Shown: positions 3,523-60,594 of the stretch, in pieces
How the letters are laid out: each line of letters begins with the position of its first letter
How positions within the stretch are numbered: the first letter of the stretch is position 1
Assembly (NCBI RefSeq): GCF_900046475.1
Contig: NZ_FCOU01000007.1
Coordinates: forward strand, 124,001-188,000
Origin: Collinsella ihumii
GTDB lineage: Bacteria > Actinomycetota > Coriobacteriia > Coriobacteriales > Coriobacteriaceae
Length of the DNA stretch: 64,000 bases
Direction of reading: 5' to 3'
Notes under the pieces: model-generated
Told to the model about the DNA's origin: nothing
Databases searched by the model: none
Seen by the model: only the letters and a program-made list of their open reading frames with translations
Translations under genes and position numbers: made by a program

Positions 3523-3600
<78 letters not shown>

Positions 3601-6429: not shown

Positions 6430-6999
6430 ATGTATGTGGAGAGATGGCCGATCGGGGATCGGCGCGGATCGGCCGCACTGCCCGCCGCGGATCGGACGTT
6501 CTGCGCGCGGGCAATGGTGCCGTTCTGCTACAAGACGGCTCCGGTTACCGTGCCGAAACAGCCGCTTCCGATAAGCATGACGCTGTCGGGCAGCACGGTA
6601 TTCGCGGCGGACGGGATGCTGCCGCAGCGCAACCTGCCGATCGTCGACGTGTTCTCCGGCGGGACGGAAGTCCACGGGACCCTCGCCGACTGCATCGCTC
6701 GCGGGCGCCGGCTGCACGATGGCGGGCGCGCCGCGGTGTCCTTCCGCGGTCCGGAGCATGCGAGCAGGCAGCAGGTGGTGCAGATCGCCCGGGAGCTCCG
6801 GCAGGCGCTCGCGCCCGGCGCGGTCGTGCTCGTGGAGGGCGATTTCGCGAAGGCACTGGGGCAGCAGCTCGCCGTGCTGGGGCTGCGCCAGGTGGTGGTG
6901 CTCGACGGCGTCTCGGTCGGGCGCGGGGATTACATCGACATCGGTCGGCCGGTGGGAGACGCCGTGCCCGTGGTGGTGAAGACCATCGCCTTTCGCTGA
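6430..6999 (+). pseudogene. C-terminal remnant of EutA-like ethanolamine ammonia-lyase reactivase
   Basis: About 190 codons resemble the C-terminal part of EutA, the ATPase-fold factor that reactivates ethanolamine ammonia-lyase: RNLPIVDVFSGG, then VLVEGDFAKALGQQL, and the end GDYIDIGRPVGDAVPVVVKT. The first two-thirds of a normal EutA (about 470 residues) is missing. The first available ATG (6430) sits in the T-run of the rubrerythrin terminator with no ribosome site, so translation is doubtful. No eutB, eutC or microcompartment gene is nearby. I read it as a decayed leftover. The family assignment rests on motif recognition only. Confidence 0.55.
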
Positions 7000-43516: not shown

Positions 43517-43617
43517 TGCATATGTTCGGCCGGACGAAGATCGTCAAGGTCGGGCTGGAGATTGTGAGTAAGCGGTAATCACCGCGAGTCGGGGCCGGGT
43601 GCCGGGAGGTGCCTGGT

Positions 43618-44442
43618 GTGGTGAAGATGGCTGAAGAGAATATGAGCGGCTGCGTCGTGGAAACGCGCGGCGGATCTTCGTGTGACGCGGTCTCCGCCGA
43701 GGGGGTATTCGACGGGGGTTCGTCCGCGAGTTCAGGGTCGGGGTCGACGGTCTATGCGGATCTGCACGTGCCCGTTTCGGGGACACGTGAGCGCGCTGAG
43801 CGCGAGAGCCGGCGCGGTCGCCGCTATGCCCCGCTGCGGCGCGCGGAGGATTGGGACCGGACCCGTGTGGGGTACCGCGTCGTCAAGCGCGCCTTCGACA
43901 TCGTGTTCAGCTTGGCGGTAATCCTCGTCGCGCTCGTACCGTCTGCACTGCTGTGCCTGGCGATCCGTCTCGAGACCCCGGGGTGCCCGCTGTACGGCCA
44001 AAAGCGCGTGGGCAGGATCGGGCCGGACGGCAAGCCCTGCGAGTTCATCATGTGGAAGTTCCGCAGCATGGTGAAGGATGCCGACGCGACGAAGGCGGAC
44101 CTCTTGGAGAAAAACGAGGTCTCCGGCCCCATGTTCAAGATGGCCGATGATCCCCGCGTCACCCGCGCGGGGCGGTTCATCCGCCGGCACTCCATGGCTC
44201 CGGTGATAATAGGGACACCGGGCGACGGGGAGCCGACCAAATCCTTATCGCATCCAGTAAATTCCTCACTTGACCTGCATAAATGCGAGCGTCTCCCGGA
44301 ACCTTTCCTGGTTGCGCAAACCCATTATACCAGCATCCAATTCTTGTCTTTTGCCGTTTTTGGGGCCCCGACGGGCACCTGGGAGCGGCCTTTCTGCGCC
44401 TGCGGAGGGACCTCCCTCCAGGGCCTCAGGGCGGTGGCATAG
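43618..44442 (+). pseudogene. truncated phosphoglycosyl (sugar) transferase
   Basis: The first part is a bacterial sugar transferase that would load the first sugar-phosphate onto undecaprenyl phosphate: a disordered N-terminus, one membrane segment (FDIVFSLAVILVALVPSALLCLA), GQKRVGRIGPDG, WKFRSMVKDAD and KMADDPRVTRAGRFIRRHS. After that Ser (near 44190) the expected LDELPQ...GDMSLVGPRP block is missing and an unrelated 80-codon tail follows, so the catalytic C-terminal part is lost. A minus-strand frame inside the tail (44277-44350) looks transposase-like but I cannot name it. GTG 43618 is favoured by GGGAGG upstream. An intact relative follows. Confidence 0.75.
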
Positions 44443-51117: not shown

Positions 51118-52373
51118 ATGGTCGATGTTTCGTTGGGGGCGCCTAGGGCGTCACGCCGCTCATCGCTGTTTCTTGAGACCAGCGTGGGGGATCTCGCTCT
51201 GCTATTGTTTCTGAATTTGGCGCTTTTCGGAGAGGCGATCCAGGGCGCGATGGGCTTTTCTTATTGTGATGAGATTGCGACTATTGCCGTGGTATGCGCC
51301 GCCTTTTTTCGATTTCATGCAAGCAAAAACGCTCTTGCCGACGGCATGTCAACTTCGTCCAGACTTGCTCTGGTATGGTTGTTTGTGGTAGTTTCCGCAG
51401 CTTTCCTCGGCAATGCGTTCTGCGGGGTCCATGCATCAACCGCGGCGATTCTGACGGATTTTCTTACTTGCTGCAAATTCCCAATTGCGCTAATTGCCTC
51501 AATCTATGCCTTTGCTTGTTCTGAACGCCTTTCTGCGCTTTTCGAAATCGAGGCGAAGATTCTTCTCGTCGTGATGACGGTGCTTGGAATCGGGAATCTG
51601 TTTTTCGATTTCGGTATGGGATCGGAGGCTCGGTTTGGCATCAGGGCTTCTTTTACTTTTGTGTTCGATCATCCGACATACCTTGTATTTTGCGCCGCCG
51701 GGCTTACGGCGTTCCTCATGAAGGATAGGGAGCGCAATATGCCTTTTATTGTCATGGGCATGCTTGTTGTTTTGCTGTCGCTGCGGTCAAAGGGCTTTGC
51801 ATTTGCGGCAGTCTGTCTCCTGTTGCTCTTGACCTTTGGCAAGAGCAACAGGCTTTCGGTGGTGCATATTGCGCTGGGGCTGGCAGCCGTAGCACTTATC
51901 GGCATGGATCAGTACATCAACTATTACCAATCCGCAGGATACGCAAGAGGCGAGCTGGCTCGCCAGGCGATTGCCGTCGCAAACGATTATTTCCCGCTCG
52001 GGACTGGCTTCGCGACGTATGGGTCCGCCGTCACCGCTCAGATCGATAATTACTCGCCGCTTTATTACGCGTACGGACTTTCTACTGTTTGGGGTCTTGC
52101 CCCTGGGGCAGCATCGTTTTTGAGTGACACTTTTTGGCCTACGGTCTTGGCGCAGTTCGGTTATTTCGGGTTGGTTGCCTTTGCCGCTCTTTTAATTGCT
52201 CTGTTCGTCATGTGCTATAAGGCAGGGGGGGGTCTCGCCTCCCAGTCATTTGCATTTTTGCCTATCTCCTCATCTCAAGCACGTCTGAGAGCTCGTTCTT
52301 TAATCCGAGCGCTGCCTATCTTGCAATGTGCGCTGGGCTTGCGATTTGCCCCGCTGGGGAGCGACGCTCATGA
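51118..52373 (+). CDS. Wzy-like O-antigen/polysaccharide polymerase, out of frame at a poly-G tract
   Basis: A multi-membrane-spanning protein with about ten hydrophobic segments and the loop between late helices typical of Wzy/O-antigen ligase proteins (FPLGTGFATYGSAVTA). The frame continues normally to residue 369. At an 8-G run (52225-52232) it shifts into an unrelated tail ending at 52446. Reading with 6 or 9 G instead continues with SRLPVICIFAYLLISSTSES, NPSAAYLAMCAGLAI and stops at TGA 52371-52373, which overlaps the next start (ATGA). The coordinates given are for the in-phase protein (about 418 residues). As sequenced the C-terminus is replaced, so activity is doubtful. Confidence 0.8.
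52225..52232 (+). repeat. poly-G tract (8 G) inside the first polymerase gene
   Basis: Eight G; 6 or 9 would keep the natural C-terminus in frame. Candidate slipped-strand switch. Confidence 0.9.
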
Positions 52374-53734
52374 TGACGGTGGCTCTTTCAGCATTTCCCT
52401 GCATAGACCTCTCTCGCGTTTTGCGGGGGTGGTTCGCAGTGCTTAGCGGCGCAAAAAGAAGATGTGAAGGCGCAACTGCCTTCTCGGTCATCGCTTTATT
52501 GGTTTGTCTTTTCGCTTTCTGCTCTTCGCTTATCACATACCGTGTGAGCATCCTGCTGTTTGCTTCGGCAATTGTTCTGGTTGCAATCTTGGCGGTTCGA
52601 AGTGGGCGGCTTCTCGAATTTGACTTGCGCGCAATCGTTCCGATTCTGCCTTGGCTCCTCGTGGCTGTTATGGCGGCTGTCGGTTATGTCGCTGGCGGCG
52701 GCTACGACCTTGCCGCCACTGTCGCGCTGGTCTGTACCGTGGCCCTTGCCGTCTTTTCGGTTGAAAATACGAAATGGATTGAGCCTACAATCACCGCATT
52801 CATCGCGGTCCTGCTCGTTTTTGCCATCGCGACTATAGCCTGCTACGTTTTTCCTCAGCTATATTCAGGCTTTATCAAGCCGACTTTCTATTCCAACGTT
52901 CCAATGGCTCAGGACTATCGGTCAGGTTTGGCATCGCACTATAGCCATAACGGGACATTCTGCACAATAGGCTTCATCCTCACTTCGGCTTTGGCGTTTT
53001 ACGATTCTCAAAAGACGAGAAGCAAGCGGTTCTACGTTTTTCTTGCTCTGGTCTTCTTTGCTGCCTTGGTGCTTACGACCAAGAGGGCGCATCTGCTTTG
53101 CGGCATATTCGCGGTCGGTTTTGTCTACCTGATTTCAAACAATCAGCATCGGTATCTAAAGGCCATCGGCGTCGGTGCATTGGTGGTTCTGGCGGTTGCC
53201 GTGCTTGCGCCGCTCATCCCTGGTATCGAGGCGACAATCGAAAGGTTGACCACCACTTTCTCGAGCAACACAAGCTTTGAGGACAATGTCAATAACAGGA
53301 CTTATTTGTGGGATTACGCCCTCAACGGTCTTGCTCAGTCGCCCGTGTTCGGGCATGGGTGGACGAGCTACTGCTATCGCTGGCCAGACGGCGTGACGAT
53401 TACCTATATGGCCCATAATGAGCTGCTTAACCTCCTTTACGAAACAGGCTATGTGGGGACAGCCGTTGTTTTGCTGGGATGTGCAGCGAGCCTGCTGCTC
53501 ACGTTCCACACGATTGCCTTGACCGATGACGGGCATTTCAAGGCGTACCTTCGCCTGTCTTTGTGCGTTCAGATTTTTTTCTTGACATACGCTTTCACGA
53601 GCGGGGCTTTGTTTACGACTATCCCAAACCTGATTACCTATTTCCTCGCCGTGGCGATTATGGCGAGCATTAGATGGGGCGCGCTGAAACGGGATCGAAC
53701 GCCGAGAACATTGCATGGGGGGGGGAACAGATGA
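52370..53734 (+). CDS. second Wzy-like polysaccharide polymerase/ligase
   Basis: A 454-residue membrane protein with about eleven hydrophobic segments and the O-antigen-ligase signature region near residues 320-350: NNRTYLWDYALNGLAQSPVFGHG, followed by MAHNELLNLLYETGYVGTAVVLL. It joins repeat units or ligates the polymer outside the membrane. ATG 52370 overlaps the in-phase stop of the previous gene; a GTG at 52328 in the same frame is less likely. The last codons cross a 9-G tract, and the TGA stop overlaps the next start (ATGA at 53731). Two polymerase-like genes in one locus may mean one makes the repeat linkage and the other a transfer. Confidence 0.87.
   Translation: MMTVALSAFPCIDLSRVLRGWFAVLSGAKRRCEGATAFSVIALLVCLFAFCSSLITYRVSILLFASAIVLVAILAVRSGRLLEFDLRAIVPILPWLLVAVMAAVGYVAGGGYDLAATVALVCTVALAVFSVENTKWIEPTITAFIAVLLVFAIATIACYVFPQLYSGFIKPTFYSNVPMAQDYRSGLASHYSHNGTFCTIGFILTSALAFYDSQKTRSKRFYVFLALVFFAALVLTTKRAHLLCGIFAVGFVYLISNNQHRYLKAIGVGALVVLAVAVLAPLIPGIEATIERLTTTFSSNTSFEDNVNNRTYLWDYALNGLAQSPVFGHGWTSYCYRWPDGVTITYMAHNELLNLLYETGYVGTAVVLLGCAASLLLTFHTIALTDDGHFKAYLRLSLCVQIFFLTYAFTSGALFTTIPNLITYFLAVAIMASIRWGALKRDRTPRTLHGGGNR
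53717..53725 (+). repeat. poly-G tract (9 G) at a stop/start junction
   Basis: Nine G directly before AACAGATGA. With 9 the upstream gene stops on the ATGA overlap; with 10 its frame would run into the next gene as a fusion; with 8 it ends elsewhere. The tract also supplies the only purine-rich ribosome-site candidate for the next gene. Confidence 0.9.
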
Positions 53735-54648
53735 GCCTGATTTCGAAAGCAACTCAATACATCAAGCACCCGCTCAGGGTGTATTCCCTGGTCTCGCGCG
53801 CAGGGTTGACGCGCTTTGTTCCGGATGAGCAACACTTGCGCATCATGTACAGAGCGCTAATCGGTAAGAGGCTCGACCTGAATAACCCGCAGGGGTTCAA
53901 CGAAAAGCTCAACTGGCTGAAACTGCACGATCGTAACCCGCTTTACAACACACTTGTAGACAAGTTGGCGGTAAAGAAGTGGGTTGCCGACAAAATCGGC
54001 GAGAAGTACGTCACTGAGACTTATGGATACTGGAGAGATGTCGAGGACGTCTCGATAGATGGGCTTCCTAACCAGTTTGTCCTCAAAACAAACCACGACA
54101 GCGGTGGAGTCGCGATTTGCCGCGATAAGGCGACTTTCGACTTCGATGCGGCGAAGAAGCTCCTCGCAAAGCATTTGAAGCGTAACTATTTCTGGTGGAC
54201 CCGGGAGTGGCCGTATAAGGACGTCATCCCCGTGGTGATGGCCGAGGAATACCTCGAGGACGAAGGGCATGAGTCCGGTCTGGTCGATTACAAGGTTACC
54301 TGCTTCGGGGGCAAGCCGACCCTCATCGAGGTGCATAGGGGCAGGTTCGGCGAGCATACCTGCAACTACTACGACGCCGAGTGGAATCCCGTTCGCATAG
54401 ACTGGGCTGGAATCCCCGTTTCTCCCGTCGAGGTTGAGCGTCCGGAGAATCTGAAGGAGATGCTTGAGCTGAGCGCCGAGCTTACGCGGGGGATACCGCA
54501 AGTTCGCTGTGACTGGTACGTGCTCGGAGAAAGGCTGATATTCGGGGAGCTGACGCTTTTCAACGGGGCGGGGTTGGATCCGATTGACGATGAGAGTGAC
54601 TCAAAGCTGGGCTCTTTGATTGACCTCGGCCTGGCTCACGGCGATTAA
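53731..54648 (+). CDS. TupA-like ATP-grasp protein
   Basis: A 305-residue ATP-grasp protein of the TupA-type group found in surface-polysaccharide loci; the founding member contributes to teichuronopeptide synthesis, so an amide or peptide-like ligation to glucuronate-containing polymer is possible. Visible family features are NPQGFNEKLNWLKLHDR, LVDKLAVKKWV, FVLKTNHDSGG (nucleotide-binding strand), VDYKVTCFGGKPTLIEV, and RCDWYVLGERLIFGELTLFNGAG (metal-binding end). UDP-glucuronate is available from ugd. ATG 53731 overlaps the previous stop; its expression may depend on the G tract just upstream. Confidence 0.87.
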   Translation: MSLISKATQYIKHPLRVYSLVSRAGLTRFVPDEQHLRIMYRALIGKRLDLNNPQGFNEKLNWLKLHDRNPLYNTLVDKLAVKKWVADKIGEKYVTETYGYWRDVEDVSIDGLPNQFVLKTNHDSGGVAICRDKATFDFDAAKKLLAKHLKRNYFWWTREWPYKDVIPVVMAEEYLEDEGHESGLVDYKVTCFGGKPTLIEVHRGRFGEHTCNYYDAEWNPVRIDWAGIPVSPVEVERPENLKEMLELSAELTRGIPQVRCDWYVLGERLIFGELTLFNGAGLDPIDDESDSKLGSLIDLGLAHGD

Positions 54649-54686: not shown

Positions 54687-55760
54687 ATGAAACTCGGAAT
54701 CGTTACCTTGTACGGTGACTTCAATTATGGCAATAGACTGCAGAACTATGCGTTGAGCACTGTGCTGCGCGGTATGGGGCACGATGTTGTGACCCTGGTC
54801 ACAGTTCAGAAGACCTCCGCTATCAAGGGGTTCTACCGAAAGCACTTCGAGAAGGAGGGCGGGAAGATCAGGCTCAAGACTCGCAAGGAGCTCAACAGGG
54901 ACGCCGCGTTCTCTGAGTTCACGAGCCGTAATATTCCCACCAGGTTCATCAAATCCGAGCGGGGTCTTTCGGGGTCCCTTAACGAGGAGTTCGATTCCTT
55001 CGTTGTAGGAAGTGACCAGGTTTGGAACCCCCTCTGGTGGGGTGACGACCTGGATTGCTGCTACTCCAACGACTACCTACTCCGATTCGCGGATGCCGAC
55101 AAGCGAGTGGCCTACTCGGCGAGTTTCGGCCTGGATTCAGTCCCCTATGTGTGGAAGACCCTGTTCAAGGATGAGCTCGGCAAATATAGGGCCATAAGCG
55201 TACGCGAGGAGGCTGGTGCGAGCATCGTCGCCGATATGGTCGGGAGCAAGCCCGCCGTGACGCTCGACCCCACCATGCTACTTGATGCCGAGGAGTGGCG
55301 CGAGGTGGAGGCGGACGTGCGGCCGAGCGGAAAGTACGTATTCCAGTTCAACCTGGGGGAGCGGTCGGACGAGCAGATTGAGCTCGCGCGCCAACTTGCC
55401 AGCAGGGGCTATGAAATCATCGACTACATGGACCCGCAGTGTCGTTACTTCGGAGGCGATCCCTCGGAGTTTCTTTCCTTGCTCGACGGCGCGGCGTGCG
55501 TTCTCACCGACAGCTTCCACGCCTCGGTCTTCTCCATCCTCTTCCGCCGACCGTTCGCTGTGTTCGGGAGGAAGCATGCCAACGGCTCGAACATGAACAG
55601 CCGCATCAACACGCTACTCGGGACTTTCGGGCTTGAGGGGCGCTGGTGCTTGGAAGGCGCAGACGCTGCTTTTAGCTGCGATTTCAGCGGCGTTGACGCA
55701 GCCTTGGATGCGTACAGGCGTCTGTCCCTGGATTACCTGAACAAAGCCCTCGTGCGTTAA
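54687..55760 (+). CDS. polysaccharide pyruvyl transferase family protein
   Basis: A 357-residue GT-B-like protein of the pyruvyl transferase family, which adds ketal-linked pyruvate from phosphoenolpyruvate to sugars, giving negative charge. The N-terminus GIVTLYGDFNYGNRLQNYAL matches the family start. Mid-region VVGSDQVWNPLWW and YSASFG are highly typical, and the end TDSFHASVFSILFRRPFAVFGR carries the conserved S/T-D-S-F-H-A motif. It is preceded by 38 non-coding bases. It lies in the same operon as the ATP-grasp and GT genes. Confidence 0.92.
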   Translation: MKLGIVTLYGDFNYGNRLQNYALSTVLRGMGHDVVTLVTVQKTSAIKGFYRKHFEKEGGKIRLKTRKELNRDAAFSEFTSRNIPTRFIKSERGLSGSLNEEFDSFVVGSDQVWNPLWWGDDLDCCYSNDYLLRFADADKRVAYSASFGLDSVPYVWKTLFKDELGKYRAISVREEAGASIVADMVGSKPAVTLDPTMLLDAEEWREVEADVRPSGKYVFQFNLGERSDEQIELARQLASRGYEIIDYMDPQCRYFGGDPSEFLSLLDGAACVLTDSFHASVFSILFRRPFAVFGRKHANGSNMNSRINTLLGTFGLEGRWCLEGADAAFSCDFSGVDAALDAYRRLSLDYLNKALVR

Positions 55761-55789
55761 ACGAGCCGATGAACTGCCGAGGATTCACC

Positions 55790-56955
55790 ATGTCCCTTAA
55801 GACAACAGTAAAGAACGCAATCTACGACGTCACCGATGATCTGCTCGTCGGCCATGCGCATAAGGTAGAGATGGCGAAGTTCCGAGACCCGAAAAGAACT
55901 GCGATTCTCGAGCAGGCCGATTTGACCGATGGCCAGAAGCGCGCCATCGACGACTTCTATGTCGAGAACTACGGCAAGAAGATCCCCTATACTTGGCATC
56001 GCCACAACCTGGGGATCTCCGGCAACTTCGATGTGCGGTTCTTCCCGGAGCTGCTGTTCATCCCTGAGTTCGAGCGCTACATGAACCAGCCTTCCGAGTA
56101 CGCGACGGTTTTCGAGGATAAGAACCTCCTCTACCTCTTTGCCGATAAGGCCGATGTGAGGACCACAAGAAGCTTGCTCACGAGAACGGCAGGGATTTAT
56201 CGCGATGCAAACATGAAAGAGCTTACCGAGCGGGAGGCTCTTGATTTTGCGGGAAGCGTCAGAAAATGTTTCGCGAAGCCGACGGTCGGCACCTGCTCTG
56301 GGCAGGGCTGCGGTGCCTATGATTTCGACGACGGGGTCGACAGGGGCACAGGCCTGGAAATCAAGACGCTCCTTGATGAACTTGGGGCCGATTTCTCCAT
56401 TCAGGAGCCGATAACCTGCCATCGCTCCATCTCTGCGCTTCACCCAGAGAGCGTTAATACTTTGAGGGTCATGACATATCGATGGCGCGACGAGCTCAGG
56501 GTGCTCCCCATGCTCATGAGAATCGGATGCGGGAAGAGCGCGGTCGACAACGCGCACGCTGGCGGCGTGTTCATCGGCGTGAGCGACCAAGGTTTACTTG
56601 CGCCCTCCGCCCTCACCGAGTTCAACGAGCGCTTCACCAAGCACCCGGACACCGGCGTCGTGTTCGACGGCTACCGGATATTCGGTGCCGAGAAGGTCAT
56701 CGGTGCCGCTAGGCGGATGCATGCGACTATGCCCCAGGTGGGTATAGTTAGCTGGGACTTCACCGTTGACGAAGACGGTGAGCCCCTCGTCATCGAGGCA
56801 AACATCCGGGGGGGGGATCCATATGGCTACCTCAGATGGCGAATGGCGTGCCCGGGTTTGGCGACGCTACGGCCGACATCCTGCGTTGGCTGCGGTTCAT
56901 GAATGCGAAGAAGCCGCATGAGCGATTGAATTACAAGTATGGTTATCACGACTAG
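55790..56955 (+). CDS. sugar-transfer-associated ATP-grasp protein, out of frame at a poly-G tract
   Basis: An ATP-grasp protein of the type found with polysaccharide glycosyltransferases. The body reads GTCSGQGCGAYDF, RVMTYRWRDELRVLPMLMRI, NAHAGGVFIGV and VSWDFTVDEDGEPLVIEANIRGG, ending at the metal/ATP site. A 9-G run (56808-56816) then shifts the frame, giving an unrelated 27-codon end with a stop at 56902. With 7 or 10 G the frame continues GSIWLPQMANGVPGFGDATA and ends at TAG 56953-56955, which fits the family. ATG 55790 is preferred over 55769 because GAGGA lies 7 bases upstream. Coordinates refer to the in-phase gene. Confidence 0.8.
56808..56816 (+). repeat. poly-G tract (9 G) inside the ATP-grasp gene
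   Basis: Nine G; 7 or 10 would keep the natural C-terminus. Third such tract in the locus and the second that is out of phase. Confidence 0.9.
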
Positions 56956-56970
56956 AGGTAACGGCTATTC

Positions 56971-57960
56971 ATGCAGAATAAGGTTTCAATAATCATCCCT
57001 GCCTTCAACGTCGAGGCGTACGTTGAGCGCGGCATCGAGTCGGCATTGGGGCAGACGTATGAAAACGTCGAGCTCGTTATGGTCGACGACGGCTCGAGCG
57101 ACGGGACGTGGGGCGTCATCGAGCGCTACGCGTCCGACAATAGGGTTAAATGCGCCCGCCAGGCCAATTCCGGCGTGTCGAAGGCCCGGAACCACGCCCT
57201 CAGCATGGCGACGGGCGACTACGCCGTGTTCCTCGATTCCGACGATTGGCTTGAGCTCGACACTTGCGATCAGCTTGTCCGTATGCGGCGGAAACACCCC
57301 AACATGCTCGTAGCCGCAGACGCCTATTTCGTCACTATGGATGGGGGCCGCGAGGGCAGGAAAGCGCAGGGTACGAACCTTGCGGCAAGGACGTTTACCC
57401 CAGATGAGGCGATTTGCGAGTTTGGGGTGTTCAATTCCGTGCACATCGGCAGCTCGTGTTACAAGCTGTTCTCCATGGACATCATCGAAAAGAACCATAT
57501 AAGGTTTGACGAGCGTATCTCGCACACCGAGGACGGCCTTTTCGTCTTCGACTACCTCAAGTGCTGCGCGGGACTTTATTACGAGCCGATTCCCCTTTGG
57601 AACATCCTTGAGCGGCCGGGCAGCGCCACTACGAGCGGGTATACCCACAAGATGCTGAGCTCGCTCGACGCGATTGGCCAGATGATCTCCAGACCGGGGA
57701 ATTCTCCCGATGCGATCGCGCACCTCGAGGCCTTCCGCGCTCACGAGGCTCTGAGGATCTTGGGGCTTGGCATAGACTCGGGCGATATGACGGAGGACGA
57801 CCGCAGGGCCCTGCTCGATGCCCTCGCGGATGGTAAAGTCGACCGTGCTAGGCTGAGCGGCGTCGACAAGGTGAGGCTGGCGCTTTATCCCAATGCGCCG
57901 GCGTTCCTCTCCCGCGTCTTCAACGGCTTTGTCGCGCACGCGAAGAAGGGCGGGAACTGA
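56971..57960 (+). CDS. glycosyltransferase family 2
   Basis: A 329-residue inverting GT-A transferase. The N-terminus VSIIIPAFNVEAYVERGIESAL is the classical start, MVDDGSSDGT the nucleotide-binding loop and FLDSDDWLEL the DXD metal site. EDGLFVFDYL holds the ED acceptor motif. It adds a sugar to the lipid-linked unit in the cytoplasm. The stop overlaps the next start (TGATG at 57958), so it is coupled to the F420-dehydrogenase-like gene. Confidence 0.92.
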   Translation: MQNKVSIIIPAFNVEAYVERGIESALGQTYENVELVMVDDGSSDGTWGVIERYASDNRVKCARQANSGVSKARNHALSMATGDYAVFLDSDDWLELDTCDQLVRMRRKHPNMLVAADAYFVTMDGGREGRKAQGTNLAARTFTPDEAICEFGVFNSVHIGSSCYKLFSMDIIEKNHIRFDERISHTEDGLFVFDYLKCCAGLYYEPIPLWNILERPGSATTSGYTHKMLSSLDAIGQMISRPGNSPDAIAHLEAFRAHEALRILGLGIDSGDMTEDDRRALLDALADGKVDRARLSGVDKVRLALYPNAPAFLSRVFNGFVAHAKKGGN

Positions 57961-59138
57961 TGGGGAGCGTGCCCAAGATAATCGACCTGGCCGAAAAGTG
58001 CTGCGGCTGCGGGGCGTGCGCCGCTTCGTGCCGCACGGGCTGCCTTGCCATGGAGCCGGACGCCGAGGGCTTCCTCAGGCCGCGCCTTAACGGGGCGAGA
58101 TGCGTTAGGTGTGGGCGCTGCGATTTCGTCTGCCCTGCGCTCCATCCCAAGGATGCCGTGATGCCCGTCGAGACGGTCTGGGCGAAATCGCGCTCGGACG
58201 AAATACTCGACGCCTCGTCTTCTGGCGGTCTGTTCGGCATGCTCGGGCGCGCCGTCGTCGACTCCGGCGGGCTCGTCGTGGGCGCCGCGTTTGTCGACGG
58301 CTGCAAGAGGGTCGAGCACACAATCGCGGAAGACTACGAAGCCCTGCTGGTGCTTCAGCGCTCGAAATACGTTCAGAGCTCGGTCGGCTCCGATGTGTAC
58401 TCTCAGGTTGGAAAGGCGCTTAGGGACGGACGCAAGGTTCTTTTCGTCGGAACGGCGTGCCAAGTCGCGGGCATGAGGAACTACCTGGGCAGGCTTGCCG
58501 ACTCTGATTTGTTCCTTTCCGTCGACGTGATTTGTCACGGCGCCCCCTCGCCGCTCTTATGGGAGAGGTGGGTCAAGCATGTCGCCTCGTTAGAGGGCGC
58601 TGAAATTGACGAAGTCAATTTCCGGAGTAAGACGACCGGATGGTCGTCTTTCTCCGTCCTATACTACGTAAGGACGGAGAAAGACGCTTCGCGCGTGCGC
58701 GGCGGGCGTTACGGGGACGACTGGTACATGAGGGCGTTCCTCGACAACGTGTCGCTCAGGCCGTCGTGCTTTGGCTGCGCGGCAAAGCGTTCCTGCGGCT
58801 CCGACGTGACGCTTGGCGACTTCTGGGGCTTCGCTGATCTCCATTCCGAGATCGATTCCACCAAGGGCGTGTCTGCCGTCTTGTGCAACACCGAGAAGGG
58901 CGCGGCCGCCGTACATGCCGTGCTTGATGGGGCCGACCATGGCGTTGCGACATACGGTGAGGTGCTTGCTGGCAATCCCGCGCTCGAAGCGTCGGTTGAG
59001 CCGCACCCGCAGCGCAGCGCCTTCATGGCGGCCCTTGTCGACGGCTCCACCATAGAATCGATGATGCGTAGGTGGAGCTTCGAGGACACGTTTTGGTCGC
59101 GGGCGAAACGAAAGCTCAAGAGGGTGTTGAAGGGATAA
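57960..59138 (+). CDS. F420 hydrogenase/dehydrogenase beta-subunit-like iron-sulfur protein
   Basis: A 392-residue protein with an N-terminal ferredoxin-like domain (CCGCGACAASC and CVRCGRCDFVCPA, two [4Fe-4S] motifs within residues 14-60) joined to the FrhB/FdhB-type domain (about 80-330). That domain shows SSSGGLFGMLG, FVGTACQVAGMRNYL, DVICHGAPSP and a second cysteine set CFGCAAKRSCGSDVTLGDFWG. In methanogens this fold handles F420 and FAD. Homologues inside gut bacterial polysaccharide loci, often beside pyruvyl transferases, have no settled function; a redox step on sugars or the lipid carrier is plausible. It overlaps the GT2 gene. Confidence 0.88.
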   Translation: MGSVPKIIDLAEKCCGCGACAASCRTGCLAMEPDAEGFLRPRLNGARCVRCGRCDFVCPALHPKDAVMPVETVWAKSRSDEILDASSSGGLFGMLGRAVVDSGGLVVGAAFVDGCKRVEHTIAEDYEALLVLQRSKYVQSSVGSDVYSQVGKALRDGRKVLFVGTACQVAGMRNYLGRLADSDLFLSVDVICHGAPSPLLWERWVKHVASLEGAEIDEVNFRSKTTGWSSFSVLYYVRTEKDASRVRGGRYGDDWYMRAFLDNVSLRPSCFGCAAKRSCGSDVTLGDFWGFADLHSEIDSTKGVSAVLCNTEKGAAAVHAVLDGADHGVATYGEVLAGNPALEASVEPHPQRSAFMAALVDGSTIESMMRRWSFEDTFWSRAKRKLKRVLKG

Positions 59139-59178: not shown

Positions 59179-60594
59179 ATGGAAGCAGACAGCAAGTACA
59201 AGAAACTCGTCAAGAATTCGGCGGTTTTTTTCATAGGGAACCTCGGCAGCAAGGTCATCACCTTTCTGATCGTCCCGTTCTATACGTACTTCCTCACCAC
59301 GGAGGAGTACGGCACCGCCGACCTCGTGACCACGACGGTGAACCTTCTTGTGCCGTTCGCCATGATGGGCATGAACGAGGCGGTCTTGCGCTTCACCGTG
59401 TCCAAAGAGGTGGACACCAAAGCTATTGCGTCTAACTCCATGCTGGTCGTGCTCGTCGGATGGGCCGTGTGCTGGCTGCTTTCCCCACTTTTTCACGCGT
59501 TCAGCGTTATCGGGGGCAATATCGTCTACTTCCTGCTGCTGCTCTGCCTGACGAGCTACAACTATGTTTTCATGCAGCTTTTGAGGGGAATTGGCGAGTC
59601 AAAGGCCTTCGCCGCGAACGGTGTCGTCATCACCTTCGCAACCGCGATCTCCAACGTGCTCGCCCTCGCCATATTCCACCTTGGGGTTGGCGGGTACCTC
59701 GCTTCGATGGTTATAGCCCAGCTTGTGGGCGCAGTGCACATCGTGATCACTTGTCGGCTTTGGAGGCTGCTTTCTCCGAGGTACGTGGACAAACGTGCGC
59801 TGAAGGGGATGCTGACGTACTGTATCCCCTTGATTCCGAACTCACTTATGTGGTGGATCATGTCCGCCTCGGACCGCTACGTGATCCTGTTCTTTATCGG
59901 TGCTGGCGCGAACGGCATCTACAACGTTGCCCAGAAGATTCCCTCGATCGTGAACATCGTGTACAACATCTTCATGCAGGCGTGGCAAATCTCGGCCATC
60001 GAGGAGCGTGACTCCGAGGACAACGCGAAGTTCCAGTCAACGGTCTTCCGCTGCATCTTCGTTGTGCTTGCCGTTGCCTCTTCTCTTATCGCTGCATCGG
60101 CGTACCCCGTTTATACCTTCCTCATGAGCTCGGCATACGAGGGCTCGTGGCAGCCGGTGGCGATGCTCTCTCTCGCAAACCTCTTCTCCTGCATTGCGGC
60201 TTTCTTCGGCACGACCTACGTCGTGACGAAGAAGAGCAAGAAGGCGTTCTCGACAACGGCGATCGGCGCTGTCATCAATATCGCGCTTACTTTGGCGCTC
60301 GTCCCGCTCTTCGGAATCATGGGAGCCGCCGGGGCGACTGCCATCAGCTATGTGGTCATCGCCATCGTGAGGGCTCGTGATACGCGGAAGTTCGTGAAAC
60401 TAGATTTCCACAAGGGGGAAATCGTTGCCAGCTTTGTACTCATCGGGGCGCAGGTCGTCCTATCGTTTCTTCCGTTTACGCCTGCTGTGCTGGCTATGGA
60501 GTTCGCTCTGTTCGCGGCGGTTCTCATCATACTGAGGAAAGGGTGTATCGACATCGTGCGTATGGGCAGCAAGGTGGTCAAGAATCGTAAATAG
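59179..60594 (+). CDS. Wzx-type polysaccharide flippase
   Basis: A 471-residue MOP-superfamily flippase with about fourteen hydrophobic segments that moves the lipid-linked repeat unit across the membrane. The start KKLVKNSAVFFIGNLGSKVI is the usual opening of this family, followed by TTEEYGTADLV and MNEAVLRF. The middle stretch LIPNSLMWWIMSASDRYVI is strongly conserved in Wzx proteins. It is the last gene of the polysaccharide locus and is followed by a perfect terminator. Together with the Wzy-like genes it defines a Wzx/Wzy-dependent pathway. Confidence 0.93.
   Translation: MEADSKYKKLVKNSAVFFIGNLGSKVITFLIVPFYTYFLTTEEYGTADLVTTTVNLLVPFAMMGMNEAVLRFTVSKEVDTKAIASNSMLVVLVGWAVCWLLSPLFHAFSVIGGNIVYFLLLLCLTSYNYVFMQLLRGIGESKAFAANGVVITFATAISNVLALAIFHLGVGGYLASMVIAQLVGAVHIVITCRLWRLLSPRYVDKRALKGMLTYCIPLIPNSLMWWIMSASDRYVILFFIGAGANGIYNVAQKIPSIVNIVYNIFMQAWQISAIEERDSEDNAKFQSTVFRCIFVVLAVASSLIAASAYPVYTFLMSSAYEGSWQPVAMLSLANLFSCIAAFFGTTYVVTKKSKKAFSTTAIGAVINIALTLALVPLFGIMGAAGATAISYVVIAIVRARDTRKFVKLDFHKGEIVASFVLIGAQVVLSFLPFTPAVLAMEFALFAAVLIILRKGCIDIVRMGSKVVKNRK

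Follow-up and report, generated by a model that had tools for sequence, protein, structure and literature searches.

A putative poly-G contingency switch in a Wzy-like polymerase gene of Collinsella

The polysaccharide operon and its long G runs

The window, that is the whole 64-kb stretch of Collinsella DNA analysed here, contains a Wzx/Wzy-type polysaccharide operon, which from 49913 onwards includes the gene for a radical SAM/SPASM protein. The operon features described below all lie on the forward strand. The next gene encodes polymerase 1, a Wzy/WaaL-like membrane protein by its context and by the modelled fold of a homologue (L113), with an ORF of 442 aa as sequenced (51118..52446). It is followed by polymerase 2 of the Wzy_C family (52370..53734; PF04932, 2.5e-17, and start context), a TupA-like ATP-grasp gene (53731..54648; PF14305, 3.9e-59) and a polysaccharide pyruvyl transferase (54687..55760; PF04230, 1.1e-27). 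The operon continues with a sugar-transfer associated ATP-grasp gene, the end of which is off the family frame as sequenced (55769..56902; PF14397, 4.4e-42, for the part before its G tract), a family 2 glycosyltransferase (56971..57960; PF00535, 2.4e-34), an FrhB/FdhB-like protein (57960..59138; PF04432, 1.4e-18) and a Wzx-like flippase (59179..60594; PF01943, 1.5e-26). Read by eye, the ORFs 5' of the operon encode sugar transferases, UDP-sugar enzymes and glycosyltransferases. Among them, the first ORF of a sugar transferase (43609-44442) diverges from its family beyond residue ~200, and a second, complete-looking sugar transferase is found directly 3' of it; the first is perhaps a broken or rearranged copy.

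Three G runs of at least eight bases are present in the window. Tract 1 is a G8 in polymerase 1 (52225..52232), tract 2 a G9 in the final codons of polymerase 2 (53717..53725), and tract 3 a G9 in the sugar-transfer associated ATP-grasp gene (56808..56816). Together they span less than 4.6 kb of this one operon. The other G runs of the window do not exceed six bases (two G6, at 3523 and 13842), and C runs do not exceed five. The run table is thus in agreement with the initial annotation, according to which only three runs are this long, all within 4.6 kb of a surface-polysaccharide locus, with a maximum of six elsewhere.

The number of runs as such is within chance. At 63% GC, the window has five overlapping octamer matches against 2.6 expected, and at least as many are seen in 20 of 100 dinucleotide shuffles, so that run-count enrichment was dropped as the main argument. 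The distribution of the runs is more informative. For G or C runs of at least six bases in the window genes, codon resampling predicts about 29, and two were counted, both of them G9 tracts (the G8 lies outside the gene set of this resampling). Medium runs are avoided in the window genes and the long ones are confined to the glycan operon, which is unusual. In the 11 operon genes, three G runs of at least eight bases compare with 0.52 expected (P ~0.012), in a post hoc test, since the operon was chosen by its tracts; polymerase 1 is included and the operon's own codon usage is taken. The operon has a lower GC content than the window. This value supersedes the result of an operon test without polymerase 1 and with window-wide codon usage (0.16 expected, P 0.0005).

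Pattern searches of the genome (2.84 Mb, 35 contigs) identified 24 G runs of at least eight bases over the two strands, and 24 of exactly seven. Seven of the 24 runs of at least eight bases are artefact-like or of low complexity and were left out (L041, L045 and L050, which are adapter-like, as well as L044 and L054). The presence of 3 of 22 separate long-run places of the genome within 4.6 kb has a P value of ~0.012, again post hoc. In L041, L045 and L050 (C3, C10 and C12), adapter-like sequence (SYTHLDVYKGQ, CTCTTATACACA) adjoins G-rich low-complexity stretches, and one of these places is inside an infB-like gene. They are likely library artefacts.

Reading frames at the three tracts

Polymerase 1 is open up to tract 1 for 369 aa, and over this part its homologues are 30-46% identical. 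Such homologues occur in 64 loci of named genomes and, within the genus, in five further genomes. The best ones come from Gordonibacter (46%), an uncultured Collinsella (44-46%) and Slackia (43%), and many others from Clostridia and Bacilli. According to the frame table, the ORF with 8 G runs on to 52446 and gives a product of 442 aa, the last 70 residues of which are unlike those of the relatives. With 7 or 10 G, a stop is reached at 52288. With 6 or 9 G, the protein has 417/418 aa, carries the family ending 'YLLISSTSESSFFNPS' and stops at 52373 in the sequence ATGATGA, where the stop codon and the start codon of polymerase 2 overlap (ATGA, 52370-52373). The tail that is encoded in the 9 G frame (46 aa, 52233..52373) has 43 tblastn matches with E<0.01 in the homologous loci, own copy included. 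In the same loci, the 8 G tail matches only itself, and the 7 G tail matches itself and a single stretch of 16 residues (E 0.006). The alignment of homologues agrees that the 9 G frame is the family frame: a YLLISSTSESAFFNP-like ending is present in most of 12 aligned homologues and missing from the 8 G product.

It had been claimed before that the 8 G run puts the polymerase out of frame, and that 6 or 9 G restore a family-like end with a stop in an ATGA overlap. The frame table and the tail test bear out the first statement; the frames, the tblastn matches of the tails and the alignment bear out the second. The further idea that tract length determines the C-terminus has to be modified. Two ends that would each be of use to the protein were rejected, as no homologue resembles the 8 G or the 7 G tail, and an ON/OFF switch of polymerase 1 is the better description. 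Translational coupling of polymerase 2 to polymerase 1 may exist as a putative additional effect, perhaps a minor one, because polymerase 2 has an SD-like sequence of its own (GGGGAG, 8 nt before the ATG). None of the 12 aligned homologues, the best of which is 46% identical, has a G run at the site of tract 1, and tract 1 is therefore not conserved in the polymerase 1 family.

The structural consequences of the frame can be judged from the model of the homologue L113 (mean pLDDT 84.6). This model matches WaaL (PDB 7TPG) over residues 26-416 with a Z score of 19.8 and 12% sequence identity, followed by matches to RodA/FtsW with Z scores of 8.5-10. On the model, tract 1 maps to the loop after helix 338-368 and before the last two helices, and the 8 G product is without these two helices of the family. 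Up to the tract, polymerase 1 matches no Pfam family at E<=0.001, Wzy_C included, which polymerase 2 does match. We call polymerase 1 Wzy-like by its predicted fold and its context. The modelled homologue is like the O-antigen ligase WaaL and the Wzy polymerases (7TPG) in fold, and polymerase 1 shares its glycan operon with a flippase. In contrast to WaaL, a polymerase rather than a ligase activity is suggested by the locus, at the low identity given above and with no Pfam match to draw on.

Tract 2 is located within the last codons of polymerase 2 and ends 5 nt before the next ATG. With 9 G, polymerase 2 ends on an ATGA (53731-53734), whereas 8 or 11 G lead to a stop at 53828, and 7 or 10 G fuse polymerase 2 to the TupA-like gene. 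For tract 3, the ATP-grasp profile match is longest in the 7/10 G frame, where it reaches position 266 of 278, against positions 255-260 in the others, and the tail of the 7/10 G frame resembles a homologue in locus L121 (E 0.007). Tract 3, with its 9 G, looks out of the family frame, less clearly so than tract 1. Long G tracts are likewise present in several glycan loci elsewhere that contain a homologue of polymerase 1. In L121, which belongs to a Bacilli MAG with 25% GC, a single glycan locus contains four tracts of G8-G10 (at 6743, 9735, 10853 and 13021), far beyond expectation from its composition. A TupA-like and an ATP-grasp gene are the hosts of two of them, which resembles the situation in the window.

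The frameshift could also be a sign of gene decay, in which case polymerase 1 would recently have become a pseudogene through a frameshift in a G-rich stretch, being redundant with polymerase 2, without any reversible switching. A second polymerase gene is indeed located directly 3', decaying genes are frequent in glycan loci, and the sugar transferase at 43609-44442 likewise departs from the end of its family. However, the sole defect of polymerase 1 is at the long tract, with the remaining frame and the ATGA junction intact, two more genes of the operon carry such tracts, and orthologous tracts persist in the genus with varying length (see below). We regard decay as very unlikely.

Poly-G tracts and mismatch repair in the genus

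G runs of at least nine bases are found in all 45 of 45 Collinsella genomes. Among the orders of the class, that of Collinsella has many such runs, and they are scarce in the others. In a crude test on 54 runs of at least nine bases from six Collinsella-type genomes and the source genome (artefact-like places left out), the larger neighbouring ORF was on the G strand in 36 cases, on the C strand in 11 and unclear in 7. The tracts, mostly G9-G11 on the coding strand, are located inside or ahead of genes for pilin-like and surface proteins, BREX, methylases and glycans. Their hosts include acyltransferase 3 and hexapeptide acetyltransferases, a family 2 glycosyltransferase, an N6/N4 DNA methylase, a SpaA-fold surface protein and BrxA of BREX. 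In the pilin-like genes with the motif GQSIIEYVLIIA, which are often tandem paralogues, G9-G11 tracts follow right after the start (MQRQLTF-GGG-) in several Collinsella genomes (L092, L106, L108, L109, L110). Two groups deviate in run number: six genomes of family f3, in the order of Collinsella, have 46-73 G runs of at least nine bases each, far above Collinsella (G067, G084, G099, G103, G117, G149), and the Collinsella genomes G032, G033 and G034 have 32-120, out of line with the rest, possibly owing to assembly artefacts.

Two orthologous tracts could be compared between genomes with exactly matching flanks. The tract at the start of brxA has a length of G9 in four species and of G10 in three (L093, L100, L196, G005, G007, G032, G036). 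With 9 G, it is in frame and an upstream GTG leads into BrxA, so that BREX looks phase-variable in Collinsella, as judged from these sequences. The surface-protein tract is G9 in six cases and G8 in one. The same comparison bears on slippage at the RNA level, where RNA polymerase or the ribosome would slip on the G run and a single DNA length would yield a mixture of full-length and truncated protein. For bacteria, slippage of transcription at homopolymers has been described, with the case of Buchnera cited in PMC2831843, and it would be compatible with slippage of the DNA. However, orthologous tracts differ in DNA length, as expected of a switch in the DNA, and we consider RNA slippage as the explanation highly improbable.

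The tracts of the source genome are found in both states. Tract 2, a G10 in L046 and a G9 in L048 are in frame, and tracts 1 and 3, a tract in L040 and a G8 in L046 are out of frame, a mixture as expected for independent switches. It also has to be considered whether tract 1 owes its frame to an error of sequencing or assembly. The true tract would then be fixed and in frame, and polymerase 1 intact. Homopolymers miscalled by one base are the most frequent type of error, tracts 1 and 3 are each one base off the family frame, and the assembly contains the adapter translations and low-complexity G stretches described above. Yet the adapter remnants indicate libraries of the Nextera/Illumina type, and in such data runs of 8-9 bases are usually called well. 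Moreover, the flanks of all three window tracts are clean, and the in-frame tracts of the source genome show no such shift. A single wrong base would in any case leave the tract itself in place, and the evidence from the genus is independent of the source assembly. An error of this kind is quite unlikely in our judgement.

A long tract is a prerequisite for slipped-strand mispairing, which weak mismatch repair makes more likely. The MutS_I domain was not found in any of 21 Collinsella genomes in a search that was positive in 11 of 14 control genomes. NucS_C was not found in the source genome, and short matches to it were seen in 4 of 21 Collinsella genomes. Collinsella may be without both known bacterial routes of replication mismatch repair, MutS and NucS, and the absence of MutS would be expected to raise slippage here.

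A probable contingency switch of polymerase 1 and its relation to known systems

Altogether, it is probable that the G8 tract is a poly-G contingency (phase-variation) switch of polymerase 1, sequenced in the OFF state. Tract 1 has two features of a contingency locus, namely a homopolymer of about eight bases or more within a gene, in which a one-base change toggles between an intact and a disrupted family protein. Eight G is at the short end of the range for such a switch. The presence of tracts 2 and 3 in the operon supports this interpretation, and it fits the genus, because orthologous poly-G tracts differ in length between identical flanks. Together with the missing MutS match, these observations also favour the slipped-strand switch that the initial annotation had proposed.

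During replication, tract 1 would gain or lose one G by slipped-strand mispairing, and without MutS the resulting loops would more often be left uncorrected. With 9 (or 6) G, polymerase 1 would have its last two membrane helices and the ISSTSES.FFNP-like motif and would be active (ON), and its translation would stop at the ATGA where polymerase 2 starts. At any other length, its end would be unrelated or shortened, and the enzyme is most likely inactive (OFF), a loss of function that for 8 G is deduced from the missing conserved helices. In the source genome, both polymerase 1 and the ATP-grasp gene that carries tract 3 would be OFF, and a single clone could give rise to cells with differing surface polysaccharides. 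Both the slippage at tract 1 and its effect on the polysaccharide are inferred.

The contingency switch could also be part of a larger scheme, in which the three tracts act in combination in a commensal without MutS, within a genus-wide poly-G phasome of Collinsella. Tract 1 would then set whether polymerase 1 acts beside or instead of polymerase 2 and so change the polymer, and tract 3 would toggle a decorating ATP-grasp enzyme. Tract 2 would be both the end of polymerase 2 and, being rich in G, a ribosome-binding stretch for the gene that follows, and depending on its length either two coupled proteins or a fusion of the polymerase with the ATP-grasp protein would be made. This combined scheme is a rather doubtful possibility.

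Contingency genes that work by poly-G tracts are classical in Campylobacter, Neisseria and Helicobacter, where capsule, LOS and methylase genes are concerned. The likeness to Collinsella consists in coding-strand G tracts of 8-12 bases in surface-glycan genes, where one base flips the frame, and in the presence of several tracts per genome and per glycan locus. Unlike these organisms, Collinsella belongs to the Actinomycetota (Coriobacteriia) and has 63% GC, a base composition at which G runs do not count as rare; tract 1 is located near the 3' end of its gene, and its switching is predicted from the sequence. The nearest report from the Actinomycetota that we found concerns Gardnerella, where many G/C tracts of at least eight bases are located near or in surface genes and vary between colony variants (PMC11287997). 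Gardnerella shares the phylum and the homopolymer tracts at surface genes with Collinsella. However, it belongs to another class, and its tracts are mostly upstream of genes, whereas those of Collinsella are inside glycan genes; in addition, variation was shown at the level of reads in Gardnerella (PMC11287997), while the polymerase 1 locus comes from one assembled genome. Homopolymer switching is general in prokaryotes according to Orsi et al. (PMC2831843). In the open-licence literature, we found no report of poly-G switching or slipped-strand phase variation in Collinsella, and nothing on phase-variable Coriobacteriia or on homopolymers in Eggerthella or Collinsella. Where Collinsella and phase variation are mentioned together in this literature, the abstracts and term counts do not link the two.

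The mechanism is a classical one, and the main interest lies in the genus-wide set of tracts. Collinsella is a common genus of gut commensals, and the G runs in its surface and defence genes suggest that these commensals switch their coats on and off by slippery DNA. Reads that already exist would allow a test of this set of poly-G tracts, which concerns glycan, pilin-like, surface-protein, BREX and methylase genes and combines length differences at orthologous sites with the missing MutS match. If the switching is true, work on Collinsella strain typing, on its susceptibility to phages and on host glycans would have to deal with mixed populations.
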